The position numbers were made by a program, and so were the translations under genes. From contig NZUD01000008.1 in NCBI GenBank assembly GCA_002697005.1, positions 1 through 11,985 on the forward strand: 11,985 nucleotides of DNA. Direction: 5' to 3'. The DNA is from Chloroflexota bacterium. GTDB lineage: Bacteria > Chloroflexota > Dehalococcoidia > UBA3495. Of the stretch, positions 4,892 through 10,763 are shown one piece after another; the first letter of the stretch is position 1, and each line of letters starts with the position of its first letter. The notes below the pieces were generated by a model. It made no database searches. It saw only the letters and a program-made list of their open reading frames with translations, and was not told the DNA's origin.

Positions 4892-5281
4892 ATGGAAGTA
4901 ACGACCCTCGCCATCGAGAAGCTCAAGGAAGTCATGGAAGAACAAGGCGAAACTGATGGGTCCCTGCGGGTAGTTGCGATACCTGCCGAAGCAGGTGGCC
5001 TTCAATACATGCTGACTATGGAGAACGAATCTCAGTCTGACGACACCGTGATGTCCAAAGAGGGCGTTAAGTTCCTGATGGACTCCGACAGCGCTCCCTT
5101 CTTAGAGGAAGCGACCATAGATTACGTCGAGAACCTGGGTGGTCAGGTAGGATTCGTCATCAACAACCCCATGTTCGCTAGCGCCGGCGGATGCGGAGAA
5201 GGTTGTGGCTGCGGTAGCGGCGGTGGCGGATGTGGCGGTGGCGGCTGCGGCTGCGGCGGCGGTGGATGTGGCGGTCACTAA
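4892..5281 (+). CDS. A-type iron-sulfur carrier-like protein (IscA/HesB/ErpA family) with Gly/Cys-rich tail
   Basis: Family members carry or insert Fe-S clusters using three cysteines, one mid-protein and two near the C-terminus in a CxC motif. The 129-residue product shows the fold signatures: an N-terminal helix AIEKLKEVMEEQG, the GLQYML strand, SKEGVKFLMD, and IDYVENLGGQVGFVINNP. The mid-protein cysteine (usually in GCSGLQY) is Ala34. The C-terminus, normally a short CGCGSSF, is a repetitive tail holding seven cysteines (C101, C105, C107, C114, C119, C121, C126) and a final His. Start: AAGGAG 9 nt before ATG. It stands alone between a long intergenic region and a strong terminator. The fold assignment is good; classical scaffold function is doubtful, and metal binding by the tail is inferred. 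Confidence 0.8.
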   Translation: MEVTTLAIEKLKEVMEEQGETDGSLRVVAIPAEAGGLQYMLTMENESQSDDTVMSKEGVKFLMDSDSAPFLEEATIDYVENLGGQVGFVINNPMFASAGGCGEGCGCGSGGGGCGGGGCGCGGGGCGGH

Positions 5282-5460: not shown

Positions 5461-7179
5461 ATGGTGCAGTCACCTCACGGTATTAAATTCGAGTCCAACC
5501 GGCCGGTAGTTATGGGTCGGAATGGGATGGTGTGCGCCGGGCATCCGCTTGCCGCCCAGGCCGGGATGGCTACACTGCAGAAAGGTGGTAATGCCGTAGA
5601 CGCTGCCATAGCCACCGCCGCAGCTTTAAATGTTGTCGAGCCCAACATGTCAGGGGTGGGCGGCGACGGCTACATTATGATCTACGACAAGGCCCGGAAT
5701 AAGATCGACATCTGCAACGCCACCGGCGCCGCTCCTTACGCAACTGACCTGGCCTGGTATCAGGCGAATGGTATCCCTCAAAAAGGGATCATGTCGTTCT
5801 CGGTACCTGGCCTTGTGGACGGCTGGATGGCAGCGCACGAGAGATATGGCACGCAAAATTTATCCGATCTTTTCTCCTCAGCCATAGATCTAGCAGACAA
5901 CGGCTTCCCTGTGACGCACATTCTATCGAGGGTCATTGCCAGCGACCCCTTGATCTGCGAATTCCCCACATCTCAGGCCATTTTCGCCCCGGGAGGCAAG
6001 CCATTGCAGCCGGGGCAGATGCTCTATCAAAAAGACCTCGCTAGGACATTCCAGGCCATCGTTGACGGCGGCCGGGACGCTTTTTACGAAGGTGCGGTCG
6101 CCAAGGCAATGGTAGATTTCTGCCAAGAGCAAGGCGGGCTTTTGTCCCTGAAGGACCTGATCGACTGCCGCTCGCGATGGCAAGAGCCCATCTCCACCAG
6201 CTATAAAGGCCACACCGTCTACGAAGCCCCGCCCAATTCCAGTGGGCACGTACTCCTCCAAGAACTGAACATGGTAGAACAGTTCGATCTCAGGTCTATG
6301 GGTTGTAACACAGTTGACAGCATCCACATGATGGTCGAGGCCAAAAAGCTAGCGTTCATCGACCGCGAGGCCTATATGGCCGACCCGGACCACACCGACA
6401 TCCCGACCCAGGGCCTGATCTCCAAAGAATATGCCAGGGAAAGGGCCAAGCTGATAGATCCCGGCACGGTATCCAACCCGACCCACGGCGACCCCTGGGT
6501 GTTCCAGGAAAAGACCGGAACCGCTGGGCGGGTTACAGCCGGCTCCGTACAAGAAGAAGACACCACTTGTTTCGTGATCGTGGACCGTTGGGGAAACGCC
6601 GTCTGCCAACTGCAGAGCATCCAAAGTTCCCTCGGATCCAGCATCGTCGCTGGAGATACCGGTATCCTGCTCAACAACCGGATGACCTACTGGCATCTAG
6701 AAAACGACCACGTGGACTGCCTCCAGCCCGGCAAGAGGGTGCGGCATACCATGAACCCGGTGATGGTTTTCAAAGGCGAAGGCCCAGGTTCAGACGGGAA
6801 AACGGGCGGTTCCGGAGAGTTGATGCTGGTCTGCGGCACGCCCGGCGCTGACACCCAGGTCCAGACCAACATGCAGGTAATCACCCACATAATCGACTTC
6901 GGCATGACCGTGGCCGAGGCTGTGGAGGCTCCCCGATGGCGCAATTCCCACAGCCCAACCGAGTCCAACGTTCCTCACGTCTGTGATAATCTGTTGCACA
7001 TGGAGTCTCGGTTCGGAACAGACGTACGGCAAGCTTTAAGAAGCAAGGGCCATCAACTGAATATGATGCCGGACTGGGGCGCCCAGGGATCAGAGATGAT
7101 GATTCAGGTGGACCCAGAGACCGGCGCTCTTCACGGAGCGGCCGACCCAAGACGGGACGGCTACGCCATTGGCTGGTAA
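5461..7179 (+). CDS. Gamma-glutamyltransferase-family N-terminal nucleophile hydrolase
   Basis: A 572-residue member of the GGT family, whose precursors self-cleave before a threonine that becomes the catalytic nucleophile of the small subunit. Seen here: the N-terminal family block (GGNAVDAAIATAAALNVVEP, then GVGGDGYIM), the cleavage site at Asp367/Thr368 (DTTCFVIVDRWGNAV), GILLNNRM, and the C-terminal block VCGTPGADTQVQTN. Atypical points: the Arg of the classical RExAP motif that holds the glutamyl carboxylate is replaced (NATGAAP, Thr88), and the Ser-Ser pair after the pro-site is His429-Thr430. There is no signal peptide, so a cytoplasmic location is predicted, unlike periplasmic E. coli GGT. 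Start: AAGGAG 6 nt before ATG. It heads a co-directional gene block. It is probably an amidase or acylase of unknown substrate rather than a glutathione-degrading GGT. Confidence 0.9.
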   Translation: MVQSPHGIKFESNRPVVMGRNGMVCAGHPLAAQAGMATLQKGGNAVDAAIATAAALNVVEPNMSGVGGDGYIMIYDKARNKIDICNATGAAPYATDLAWYQANGIPQKGIMSFSVPGLVDGWMAAHERYGTQNLSDLFSSAIDLADNGFPVTHILSRVIASDPLICEFPTSQAIFAPGGKPLQPGQMLYQKDLARTFQAIVDGGRDAFYEGAVAKAMVDFCQEQGGLLSLKDLIDCRSRWQEPISTSYKGHTVYEAPPNSSGHVLLQELNMVEQFDLRSMGCNTVDSIHMMVEAKKLAFIDREAYMADPDHTDIPTQGLISKEYARERAKLIDPGTVSNPTHGDPWVFQEKTGTAGRVTAGSVQEEDTTCFVIVDRWGNAVCQLQSIQSSLGSSIVAGDTGILLNNRMTYWHLENDHVDCLQPGKRVRHTMNPVMVFKGEGPGSDGKTGGSGELMLVCGTPGADTQVQTNMQVITHIIDFGMTVAEAVEAPRWRNSHSPTESNVPHVCDNLLHMESRFGTDVRQALRSKGHQLNMMPDWGAQGSEMMIQVDPETGALHGAADPRRDGYAIGW

Positions 7180-8026: not shown

Positions 8027-8056
8027 TTGTGCTTCCCTGGGGGCGGGGAATATACT
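8027..8056 (+). promoter_or_regulatory. Possible promoter immediately in front of the LON-domain gene
   Basis: TTGTGC (8027-8032), 18 nt, then TATACT (8051-8056; 5 of 6 consensus matches). Initiation about 7-10 nt after the -10 box would fall at or next to the ATG at 8066, implying a leaderless message. That fits the lack of a clear Shine-Dalgarno there. The -35 match is weak. Confidence 0.35.
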
Positions 8057-8065
8057 TCTGGTACT

Positions 8066-8737
8066 ATGTCTCAGCCTCAAGAAGAGTTCTCGGACGGCCT
8101 CACATCACTGCCCCTCTTTCCGTTGAACCTGGTCCTGTTTCCAGGCATGGACTTGCCTCTTCACATCTTCGAGGAGCGCTACAAGGACATGATTGGAGAG
8201 TGCCTGAACCAGGATTCTCCCTTTGGCGTCGTGTTGATCAAAGAAGGATTAGAGATCGGCGACCCGGCCGAACCTGAACGGATCGGAACATCAACCAGGA
8301 TACTGCGCTCAGAAGTCCTAGACCAAGGGCGTCTCAACATCATGACCAAGGGTGAACGCCGGTTCGAGATCGAAGAGATAACCCAGCGGGTGCCTCATGT
8401 GGTAGGCCGGGTGCGCTACTTGGTGGAGATCGAAGGCCAGGGTTGCTCCGAACTGGTACCTCAGATCAACGACGAATACGTAGAATTGGTACGGAATCTA
8501 ACAGCCCTCACCGGCGGATATACATCAAGGGTGGAGATCCCCGAAGACCCTGTCGAGCTCTCCTACGCCATCGCCGCCAATCTGAACCTAGAGCCCCATC
8601 TACGGCAGAGCCTGCTTGTCACTGAGACCGCTGCGACTCGGCTGGCCGACTTGATTCCTATGTTAAGGCAGGGCAACGAAGCTATGCGGAAACGCATCGA
8701 GGAACAGAACCCTTTTCAGGGCCCGCGTCTCAACTAG
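8066..8737 (+). CDS. LON substrate-binding-domain protein (Lon N-terminal domain family, no protease)
   Basis: A 223-residue protein with the N-terminal domain of Lon proteases (PF02190 type) but no AAA+ or Ser-Lys protease part. Signatures: LPLFPLNLVLFPGMDLPLHI (residues 15-34) continuing EERYKDMI, FGVVLIKEG, IGTSTRIL and LNIMTKGERRFEI. A helical C-terminus includes the substrate-domain region around SYAIAANLNLEPHLRQSLL. Bacterial stand-alone LON-domain proteins of about 200 residues are widespread, and their function is not settled; peptide or protein binding is inferred. ATG at 8066 is chosen because the family block begins soon after it; a TTG at 8027 would only add a non-conserved extension. 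It ends convergently with the BtuF-like gene, sharing a CTAG. Confidence 0.87.
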   Translation: MSQPQEEFSDGLTSLPLFPLNLVLFPGMDLPLHIFEERYKDMIGECLNQDSPFGVVLIKEGLEIGDPAEPERIGTSTRILRSEVLDQGRLNIMTKGERRFEIEEITQRVPHVVGRVRYLVEIEGQGCSELVPQINDEYVELVRNLTALTGGYTSRVEIPEDPVELSYAIAANLNLEPHLRQSLLVTETAATRLADLIPMLRQGNEAMRKRIEEQNPFQGPRLN

Positions 8738-9669
8738 CCGGCCTTGGTCAGGTCTCCAAACAACCGGAGCGCCGCAGACTCAGGTATCAACCCTGAGAAT
8801 AACTCCGGGTGAATCATCTCTGCCATGATCTCCAGTCCGGTAACCAACCGAGGGCCAGAGCGGCTGGTGTAAGAACCCGCATCCACCACGTAGACCCGGT
8901 TATTCTTCACTGCTGGCAGCGATGCCCACCCATCTTTGGCAATCATCGTGGGCATGTCTTCTAGCGCCCGCTTCACATCGAAGCCGCACTGCATCATGAT
9001 GATAATCTCGGGCTGGCTGGCGACAACTTCATCCCAGTCCAGCTTCAGCGTCCCAGTGTCCTTGTCACCAAAGCTGTTGGTCCCGCCGGCCAATTCCGTC
9101 ATCTCAGGCACCCAATGGCCCCCGCACATCACCGGATCAGCCCATTCAACGTGCAACACGCTGGGGTGATTATCGGCATCCTTGGCTCGATCTGCCACGG
9201 CCTCGATGCGGGCAGTCAGTCCGGAGGTGATCTCCGTTGCCTTGGCTTCCGTGCCTGTGGCCCTGCCTAACCGGTTCAAGTCCTCAACCACGTCTCCGAT
9301 ATGGAGCGGGTCCAGCGACAGGACCTCAGGCTCTTTGGCCAACCCGACGCTTACCTCGGCAACCTGCCGAGACGAGATGGCTCAAACCTCGCAGATGGCT
9401 TGAGTGATCAGCAGGTCTGGTTCAGCCGCTTGCAGTAGGACTGTATCTATCTCGTAGATACCCAGACCTTGGGCCAGGCGTTCAGAAATCACCCTGCTGA
9501 TCTCACCGCTTGTTGGTTCTTGACCTTCGAATACACTGTGGACCACGTGAGGTTTGTCTTTAGCCTCGGGCGGATAGTCGCACTCATGGGTCACGCCGTA
9601 AAGTTGGTCACCCAAACCCAAGTCGTAGACCATCTCAGTAGCACTAGGCAGGAAAGAGCAAATTCGCAT
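8734..9669 (-). CDS. BtuF-like cobalamin-binding protein, predicted selenoprotein (in-frame TGA at codon 96)
   Basis: COG0614-type periplasmic-binding-fold protein. The start [20 protein letters not shown] and [11 protein letters not shown] are hallmarks of the BtuF-like cobalamin-binding subgroup. The frame is interrupted only once, by TGA at 9384..9382, and runs on in the same frame for 215 more sense codons: [18 protein letters not shown], then [30 protein letters not shown] and the end at TAG. Homologues, from memory, read PDLIxTQxLCxVCAVS here, so the TGA replaces the second cysteine of CxVC, giving C93-E-V-U96. A SECIS-like hairpin follows at once (9355-9371). Total 311 residues with Sec. 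Start: GAGGA 6 nt before ATG. No signal peptide is seen, so it may be cytoplasmic. No TonB, BtuC or BtuD gene is nearby. Alternatives: a nonsense mutation, or TGA read by a cysteine suppressor tRNA. Confidence 0.82.
9355..9371 (-). promoter_or_regulatory. Candidate bacterial SECIS element in the BtuF-like gene
   Basis: Read on the minus strand, a 7-bp perfect stem (CTCGGCA/TGCCGAG) begins 10 nt after the TGA; if the last A-U is left open the loop is AGGUU. Two G-U pairs and, beyond a mismatch, two further pairs extend the stem towards 9376 and 9350. The loop starts about 16-17 nt after the TGA and has G in its first two positions, matching the known bSECIS pattern (loop 16-37 nt from UGA, short loop with an early G). 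Confidence 0.7.
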
Positions 9670-9674
9670 ATATC

Positions 9675-9694
9675 GTCCTCGGCTAAGGGCTCTC
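9675..9694 (-). promoter_or_regulatory. Small hairpin in the osmC-btuF-like intergenic leader
   Basis: Inverted repeat CGGCT/AGCCG around a 10-nt interior in the 64-bp gap between the OsmC-family stop and the BtuF-like start, ending next to the GAGGA ribosome-binding site. It could tune translation or mRNA stability; there is no T-run and no resemblance to a cobalamin riboswitch. Confidence 0.3.
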
Positions 9695-9733
9695 AGCCGT
9701 TAGTTCCGTTATTAGGCTATGACCCATGGTACC

Positions 9734-10171
9734 TTACCGGTATTTTTCGGCGTGCCGAATCAACTCAACGGTAGTATCAGCGGTCGCCACGGCGACCGAA
9801 CCATAGAGTGGTCAACGCTTCTTCCAGGTTTCAACCAGATTGTGGGCGTCCTCGTCATCGACACCCCACATCTCGAACTTGATGCGGATGGCATCGTAAA
9901 GCGACAGATCGCCGTGGTCGGCGCCCGAGTCGCGGTACGATTCCACGCTCACGTCCATCCAGTCCAGAGCTATGTCGTCTTTGTCGGCCAAGCGTTCGAC
10001 CATGTTCACGGCGCATGCGGTGATTCCCGAGAAGAAGAACTCTCCAGCACCGACCTCGTCTCCGCCGCCATCATCGGCCACGAAATGATGGGTGCGGGCG
10101 TTGCATATGGCCCTCCCAAGAGTGCCAGTGCTATATCCCCGAACTTTATAAGCCAGTGTCAGGTTCGCCAT
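9734..10171 (-). CDS. OsmC-family protein, predicted selenoprotein (in-frame TGA at codon 120)
   Basis: OsmC/Ohr-family proteins reduce organic hydroperoxides with a pair of cysteines. ATG at 10171 has AGGAGG 5 nt upstream. Reading to the first TGA (9814..9812) gives 119 residues ending ETWKKR. Reading through adds PLYGSVAVATADTTVELIRH and a few more residues to TAA at 9734, which is plainly the family's last strand after the conserved CPxY motif. The TGA therefore stands for the second catalytic cysteine. The first is C53 in SGITACAVNMVE; the C53-U120 distance (67) is close to that of C59-C125 in E. coli OsmC. The full length of 145 residues is normal for the family. A SECIS-like hairpin follows the TGA (9781-9798). 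It is probably co-transcribed with the BtuF-like gene 64 bp downstream. Sec-containing OsmC-like proteins have, to my recollection, been reported from marine metagenomes. Confidence 0.87.
9781..9798 (-). promoter_or_regulatory. Candidate bacterial SECIS element in the OsmC-family gene
   Basis: Read on the minus strand, CGGTCGC pairs perfectly with GCGACCG around the loop CGUG, beginning 13 nt after the TGA. The loop starts about 21 nt after the TGA, is 4 nt long and has G at its second position followed by U. All of this fits the bSECIS rules. The same bases encode the FAM-conserved GSVAVAT segment, so the hairpin is embedded in coding sequence, as expected for bacteria. Confidence 0.72.
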
Positions 10172-10211
10172 TTCTCCCTCCTGATCGGCCTCAGCCCCAG
10201 TCGTTTCGCCT

Positions 10212-10240
10212 ATATTAGCGTCACGCCTTATACCACGCAA
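10212..10240 (-). promoter_or_regulatory. Probable promoter of the osmC-btuF-like unit
   Basis: On the minus strand TTGCGT (10240..10235) is followed after 17 nt by TAATAT (10217..10212), giving a leader of about 34 nt before the strong AGGAGG site. Matches to the sigma70 consensus are partial (3 of 6 and 4 of 6). A TATAAG further upstream has no -35 partner. Confidence 0.4.
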
Positions 10241-10258
10241 CATGCCCGGCGGTACGCT

Positions 10259-10288
10259 TTGACACCCTCCAACTCCGCCACCTATCAT
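10259..10288 (+). promoter_or_regulatory. Sigma70-like promoter of queF
   Basis: A perfect TTGACA (10259-10264), 18-nt spacer and TATCAT (10283-10288; 5 of 6). The start of transcription would lie near 10295, leaving a leader of about 43 nt that includes the GGAGG ribosome-binding site. The leader shows no preQ1 riboswitch consensus. Confidence 0.7.
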
Positions 10289-10337
10289 GGTGGTCAGGCC
10301 ATTTTAGAGACTCGGCTTGAATCCACACGGAGGCTCC

Positions 10338-10763
10338 ATGGCGACCATCAACGAACTCAAAGAACAGTACGAAGGCCTTGACCAAGAACTGCCAGCCAAA
10401 AGCGAAGAAGCCATCGACCCAGCATGCCTGCTCACCTTCCAATACGAATATCCAAACCAGCAGTCTCAGGTTGAGATTGACACCGATGAGTTCACCGCGG
10501 TCTGCCCGTGGACCGGCCTCCCTGATTACGGGGTCTTGACCATATCATACGTTCCGGGCGACTCTTGCATCGAACTGAAATCCTTGAAGTACTATCTACT
10601 TTCCTACCGGGACGTAGGCATCGTCCAAGAGCACGCCGCTAACCGGATACTGAACGATCTGGTCGCTGCCTGCCAGCCCCGATCCATGAAGATCACCCTC
10701 GATTACAAAGTCAGGGGCGGACTGCACACCGCCGTTACTGTCGAACACAACGTCGGCAAATAA
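10338..10763 (+). CDS. queF: NADPH-dependent 7-cyano-7-deazaguanine (preQ0) reductase, QueF type I
   Basis: Reduces the nitrile of preQ0 to the amine preQ1 in queuosine tRNA-modification synthesis, in the cytoplasm. The 141-residue length matches the unimodular type I enzymes. The catalytic cysteine that forms the thioimide is C56 in FTAVCPWTGLPDYG, with the proton-donor Asp as D63. The family's NADPH/substrate motif follows as E79-LKSLKYYLLSYRD, and the substrate-binding glutamate is E98 in GIVQEHAANRILNDL. ATG at 10338 is chosen: GGAGG lies 4 nt upstream and an upstream TTG (10317) adds nothing conserved. It is a single-gene unit divergent from osmC. No queC, queD, queE or tgt is in the window. 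A weak GTTC/GAAC hairpin with a T-rich stretch (about 10766-10797) may end its transcript. Confidence 0.93.
   Translation: MATINELKEQYEGLDQELPAKSEEAIDPACLLTFQYEYPNQQSQVEIDTDEFTAVCPWTGLPDYGVLTISYVPGDSCIELKSLKYYLLSYRDVGIVQEHAANRILNDLVAACQPRSMKITLDYKVRGGLHTAVTVEHNVGK

Follow-up and report, generated by a model that had tools for sequence, protein, structure and literature searches.

A BtuF-fold gene with an in-frame TGA in a SAR202-type Chloroflexota bacterium almost certainly encodes a selenoprotein

Does an in-frame TGA end a gene of a marine SAR202-type bacterium, or does it encode selenocysteine (Sec)? The question is raised by an 11,985-nt stretch of Chloroflexota DNA (contig NZUD01000008.1), referred to here as the window, in which a minus-strand gene for a BtuF-like protein runs from an ATG at 9669 to a TAG at 8736-8734 (311 codons plus the stop). 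The sole in-frame TGA of this gene is codon 96, followed by the residues AISSRQV and giving, if read as Sec, the motif C93-x-x-U96. An initial annotation of the window had described one frame with a single TGA at this codon, and the window sequence confirms it. From sequence comparison, the gene is almost certainly a selenoprotein gene. There is little room for doubt that UGA would be translated as Sec via SelB and tRNA-Sec, directed by a downstream hairpin, to yield a single predicted cytoplasmic protein of 311 residues, two-lobed like BtuF and the heme- and siderophore-binding proteins.

Conservation of the TGA codon

The read-through frame matches Pfam PF01497 (Peripla_BP_2) with 77.5 bits; the piece after the TGA alone scores 63.6 bits, the piece before it alone has no Pfam match, and the protein has a BtuF-like binding-protein fold. 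Among the best 120 of 6877 database matches, 26 are full length and 59–65% identical to the window protein, the other 94 being post-TGA pieces of ~195–214 residues with 87–92% identity. NCBI names several pieces of 214 residues in SAR202, Chloroflexi and Dehalococcoidia records "hypothetical protein", and other records carry pieces of 204 residues as "ABC transporter substrate-binding protein". The expectation that standard annotation would report two broken fragments is thus only partly borne out, as these records hold the post-TGA piece alone. A downstream piece annotated on its own is also what would be left by a pseudogene, a sequencing error or an ordinary stop splitting the gene, an explanation that we regard as very improbable in view of the codon's conservation.

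A similarity search matched 446 relatives in all, from which the best 80 loci in named genomes were taken (loci and genomes are numbered with L and G, respectively). All 24 Chloroflexota loci of the SAR202/Dehalococcoidia group among them (54–93% identity) have TGA at the aligned codon, and the remaining 56 have cysteine (Cys). An order-level genome search, which gave matches at E <= 1e-60 in 90 of 250 genomes and lists them down to E ~1e-64, returned at least 53 TGA copies in at least 47 genomes. Among the matches listed, TGA is present in each of the 53 that span codon 96 with an identity of 52% or more, and the next one (L209, 50% identity) holds TGC. The 29 order-level copies beyond the first 24 read TGA without exception (29/29), a biased sample since 19 copies were picked because their TGA had been flagged; the first 24 loci and the order-level list are unbiased. 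A class-level sample (matches at E <= 1e-30 in 34 of 245 genomes, one with TGA) was too broad and was replaced by the order-level one; 29 of its loci read at codon 96 comprise 24 TGC and 5 TGT.

Altogether, the 86 other loci read (83 of them distinct) and the 26 full-length database proteins all have Cys at this position, amounting to 109 of 109 other distinct homologues, and the codon is always TGA, never TAA or TAG, in the window and its 53 further copies. Every locus read has TGA, TGC or TGT, and a random codon was not seen. The alternation that the initial annotation proposed to look for is therefore present, and its view that the TGA replaces a Cys and creates a CxxU motif holds. Percent identity by itself does not tell the Sec from the Cys group, the full-length Cys proteins being as close to the window protein as stated above. 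In 11 pairs the parts before and after the TGA are both under strong purifying selection (for L001, the nonsynonymous rate dN is 0.057 and the synonymous rate dS 1.44 before the TGA, and 0.047 and 1.07 after it), and the Cys relatives have a single open frame, both of which speak against a pseudogene or a split gene. With 54 separate TGA copies, a sequencing error is unlikely.

Table. Coordinates of the predicted selenoprotein gene, its elements and other genes in the window
Feature	Position	Strand	Basis
Predicted selenoprotein gene, BtuF-fold (Peripla_BP_2), 311 residues, in-frame TGA at codon 96	8734..9669	-	Frame, Pfam, fold
TGA, predicted to be read as selenocysteine, U96 of C93-x-x-U96	9382..9384	-	TGA in 53 further clade copies; TGC/TGT in 83 other distinct loci
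SECIS-like hairpin with a CUCGGC/GCCGAG stem (7 bp if the closing A-U is counted) and AGGUU at the apex	9355..9371	-	Synonymous constraint, covariation, bSECIS rules
OsmC-like gene directly upstream of the Sec gene, 142-nt gap	9812..10288	-	Pfam PF02566 25.0 bits, cut-off 27.5
HesB/IscA-like protein with long Gly/Cys-rich tail, no in-frame TGA	4892..5281	+	IscA_HesB_Se 45.2 of 85 bits
Gamma-glutamyltransferase	5461..7179	+	436.6 bits, cut-off 357.85
LON-substrate-binding-domain gene, convergent with the Sec gene	8027..8737	+	
QueF-II preQ1 synthase	10317..10763	+	

The downstream hairpin and the selenocysteine machinery

A perfect 7-bp hairpin (CTCGGCA/TGCCGAG with loop GGT, equally 6 bp with loop AGGTT) begins 10 nt past the TGA. 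Published rules for a bacterial selenocysteine insertion sequence (bSECIS) call for a loop of 3-9 nt, a stem of 4-16 bp, a G among the first two nucleotides of the loop, a distance of 16-37 nt between UGA and loop and a minimum free energy (MFE) of -7.5 or lower (PMC13188914). The window hairpin agrees with these rules as 6 bp plus AGGUU at a spacing of 16 nt and as 7 bp plus GGU at 17 nt, with MFE values of -11.4 and -12.3. In a synonymous-codon test on 24 sequences (L023, the most distant of 25, was excluded), codons 95-104 reach an identity of 0.77, the top of 306 ten-codon windows, against 0.49 overall; codons 101, 102 and 104 are invariant in 25 sequences, and variation is free at codons 99 and 103, where the third base is unpaired. 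Covariation was analysed in 45 distinct 37-base sequences out of 54 copies, L206 being excluded for an N and the others as duplicates. In 97.8% of cells the bases can form the six-pair stem, with AGGTN as its loop, and two-sided changes occur in three of the six base pairs, in four cells (one pair with a single UA-to-GC change, one with two GC-to-AU changes and one with a single GC-to-AU change). None of 500 shuffles matches this level of covariation, and slid structures give only 0 or 1 two-sided pair. As the sequence-collecting pattern fixed parts of the loop, loop invariance was not used as evidence. By these alignments the hairpin region is under synonymous constraint and its stem covaries, and comparison raises the putative hairpin above chance; the initial annotation's SECIS-like hairpin is thereby upheld by rules, constraint and covariation alike, the latter two also arguing against a decayed or split gene.

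The Sec machinery was searched in 24 Sec-form genomes related to the window. SelD lies above the cut-off in all 24, the best match in each having one internal TGA (the G003 gene appears as two matches). The selD hairpin apex, viewed by eye in four loci in which the TGA position was also read, is likewise GGU, a likeness to the BtuF-like gene in an unrelated protein. SelA is found in 22 of the 24 (absent from the matches in G004 and G005) and SelB in 21 (not in G002, G005 and G019, the last with a fragment). A tRNA-Sec above 60 bits occurs in 19 genomes (not in G004, G005, G009, G015 and G019), a bar chosen because weaker RF01852 matches, probably other long tRNAs, occur in all genomes, controls included; ARAGORN called a tRNA-Sec with UCA in 19 of 19 loci submitted. 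Among the sel genes, G005 (2.1 Mb) has selD alone. The relatives therefore do not show the lack of sel genes that the initial annotation had named as a refuting outcome, and their machinery is a further argument against a pseudogene. Fourteen control genomes gave matches above cut-off for SelA in 1, SelB in 2, SelD in 2 and tRNA-Sec in 5. Among 19 Cys-form genomes, tRNA-Sec exceeded 60 bits in 11 and SelB its cut-off in 9, so that machinery this common in Cys-form genomes is by itself no marker of the Sec form. An in-frame TGA would also be expected if TGA were reassigned to an amino acid genome-wide. This is scarcely credible here, as none of 11 other chosen window genes has an internal TGA, the OsmC-like gene ends in TGA, and the relatives have a UCA tRNA-Sec together with the Sec machinery.

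Ancestry and possible role of the protein

Codon 96 was entered as C in all tree rows and thus cannot drive topology. In a tree of 107 proteins, whose bootstrap is not fully settled, 26 Cys rows are nested in a 25-row Sec clade and the outgroups are Cys, requiring at least two Sec/Cys changes (two at either end of the 5-95% range across bootstrap trees). A larger FastTree tree (52 Sec rows, 109 Cys rows), which was not bootstrapped and has many long branches, again gave two changes, with L209 (TGC) just outside. The simplest reading of these trees is one Sec gain and one reversion to Cys: the Sec form would have arisen from a Cys ancestor within SAR202-type Chloroflexota, and one derived lineage would have returned to Cys. 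Several genomes have two or three TGA-bearing copies (L174, L190 and L201 in G469; L199 in G021; L203 in G461; L200 and L207 in G466; L208 in G470), in which the Sec form seems to be duplicated. Cys paralogues, too, are present in the Sec genomes, with 35-43% identity in the order-level search; one was located in 6 of 9 fetched regions, and CxxC is kept in all six. The paralogues L210-L212 and L216-L218 have LCSSD or PSAFG for QCGFD and TGQW for GGHW; such differences at positions fixed in the main family hint at other ligands.

Loops after strands hold C30, C93, U96, H185 and C228, and these five soft-ligand residues (CxxU/C plus C30, C228 and H185) are kept in 107 of 107 aligned proteins. 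The initial annotation had suggested redox activity or metal or corrinoid ligation instead of plain B12 binding, which fits the conserved Cys/His set and stands as a prediction. A plain BtuF-type cobalamin transport protein, whose Sec would be a neutral stand-in for a structural cysteine, is improbable. A signal peptide could not be accommodated in 104 of 140 loci, window included, where an upstream in-frame stop limits extension to <12 residues (34 of 140 could start further up and 2 have no stop), and 25 of the 26 full-length database proteins begin at the same residue. The window protein thus differs from the periplasmic B12 receptor BtuF (E. coli 1n2z/1n4a; V. cholerae 5ysc) in having no signal peptide. 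Moreover, V. cholerae BtuF (5ysc) and 4m7o have neither a Cys at 30 nor a counterpart of C228, and the CxxC loop is missing in 4m7o and lies beyond the aligned parts in 5ysc. Against the curated NCBIfam BtuF model NF002894, the window protein scores 38.2 bits at a cut-off of 234, and an NCBIfam scan of it gave only matches far under cut-off. A separate BtuF-like protein directly follows the Cys relative in six loci and lies further on in L024 (Pfam was run on the one in L028); the one in L028 is also under the NF002894 cut-off (99.2 bits). Neither btuC nor btuD is among the annotated neighbour genes in the window; genes of this type lie beside Cys relatives such as L028.

The link to cobalamin comes from these Cys relatives. 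Downstream of the Cys gene in L027, L028, L029, L033, L040 and L042 lie genes that fall into clusters with a second BtuF-like protein, an ATP-binding cassette (ABC) ATPase and a FecCD permease, and L028, L029 and L040 have a TonB-receptor cluster upstream of the Cys gene. The gene set of L028 was run through Pfam, where the permease has BtuC as its best match, below cut-off (233 of 334 bits). Cobalamin riboswitches lie on the same strand 132 nt upstream of the L024 gene and 208 nt upstream of the L135 gene. In L028, L029, L036 and L040 they precede the TonB receptor that is upstream of the Cys gene; in L038, L043 and L079 they are on the opposite strand. The likeliest role of the window protein, to which we give about even chances, is intracellular corrinoid binding, distinct from that of a periplasmic importer receptor, in which the thiol/selenol pair would act as cobalt ligand or reductant, for instance in removing the upper ligand or holding cob(II)alamin. 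A more specific proposal, which we consider rather unlikely, is a selenoenzyme that processes corrinoids in the cytoplasm: its BtuF fold, relocated into the cell, would remove ligands from B12 or reduce it, with the selenolate, C93, C30, C228 and H185 at the cobalt. Were this so, it would perform in bacteria the function that the CblC/MMACHC step has in humans, and its Cys forms in other phyla would be those controlled by cobalamin riboswitches.

The conserved soft ligands are also expected if the BtuF fold is a mere scaffold and the protein a general thiol-redox or metal selenoprotein, in which CxxU, C30, C228 and H185 bind a soft metal or an Fe-S cluster, or serve in peroxide defence partnered by the neighbouring OsmC-like protein. 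This possibility, to which we lend some credence while doubting it, draws on the OsmC-like gene immediately upstream in the window and in several relatives (the same order is found in L001, L003-L007, L012 and L013), on metal-ligand roles proposed for other Sec-containing transport proteins in PMC13188914, and on the lack of a riboswitch near the Sec genes scanned. It is weakened by the fact that some Cys relatives have cobalamin riboswitches and B12-type operons nearby, and by an OsmC adjacency that is not clade-wide, another gene (ion-antiporter-like by eye) being upstream in 8 loci. That the OsmC-like and Sec genes form one transcription unit is a guess, and the neighbours of Sec loci, which vary among sub-clades, were uninformative as a clue to function.

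Taken as a whole, a selenoprotein with a possible corrinoid function, descended from Cys forms and with one reversion, is very likely the best explanation, and several observations count against it. The Sec machinery described above is that of relatives. The window hairpin has a folding energy within the reach of chance (z of -0.99, with 36 of 200 shuffles as stable or more so), and single-hairpin folding energy, being no better than shuffles, was dropped as SECIS evidence. Of the distinct Cys loci, 58 were scanned (61 counting duplicates; 83 distinct were available, many with short flanks) and only 9 hold a cobalamin riboswitch, and Rfam at gathering score gave nothing in the window, hence no cobalamin riboswitch there. 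Such riboswitches are likewise absent from the 7 of 24 Sec loci scanned, and in 30 Sec-form genomes (28 with riboswitches) they lie, among the matches listed, on other contigs or at least 28 kb from the Sec gene. As the link to cobalamin comes from Cys relatives of 43-49% identity, the corrinoid role is carried over from them; the Sec forms may have left B12 control. Finally, Q replaces H185 in the paralogues L211 and L218 and L211 has no C228, so that these residues are not invariant across the wider family.

Other genes at the loci and place in the catalogued family

The stop codons of the Sec gene and the convergent LON-substrate-binding-domain gene overlap by 4 bases (8734-8737), and a relative of the latter lies downstream of the Sec gene in 17 of 25 Sec loci, window included. 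A relative of the gamma-glutamyltransferase is near the Sec gene in 13 Sec loci, again counting the window, and relatives of the QueF-II gene have adjoining queC-, queE- and queD-like genes (by eye). At L036, Diphthami_syn_2 (PF01902) and DUF6580 proteins (8619-9982) stand between the riboswitch-led TonB receptor and the Cys homologue; a PF01902 cluster also adjoins L025, L030 and L077.

The initial annotation had proposed a new selenoprotein, a claim that does not stand. Table 1 of PMC13188914 (2026) lists "Cobalamin-binding protein BtuF" (cd01144, CxxU, one Sec, example MDE0719563.1) as a predicted selenoprotein, and the same entry, with example RUA21600.1, is in a table of PMC9312934 (2022). 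Both credit it to Peng et al. 2016 (PMC5029168), whose main text contains neither the word BtuF nor cobalamin. Domain and CxxU motif, with Sec second, are as in the window, and judged by these two the window gene is a member of the catalogued predicted family and not a new family. The BtuF CxxU rows in the two tables give no SECIS, phylogeny or function, and no functional study of this selenoprotein was found in the literature searched. SaoB and SaoX, listed in PMC13188914, likewise have Sec in an ABC-type binding protein; their motifs CUxxT and UxP and their NCBIfam families differ from those of the CxxU BtuF-like protein.

A family known as one table row in two reviews and split at its TGA by public annotation is thus firmed up by comparison. 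Added here are the evolution of its SECIS, one apparent Sec-to-Cys reversal, the lack of a signal peptide, a conserved Cys/Sec/His set that is not in known BtuF, and cobalamin riboswitches or B12-uptake-type operons at some Cys relatives. The family offers a natural Sec/Cys pair, the return from Sec to Cys included, and it points to a cytoplasmic thiol/selenol protein whose possible corrinoid role would be directly testable.
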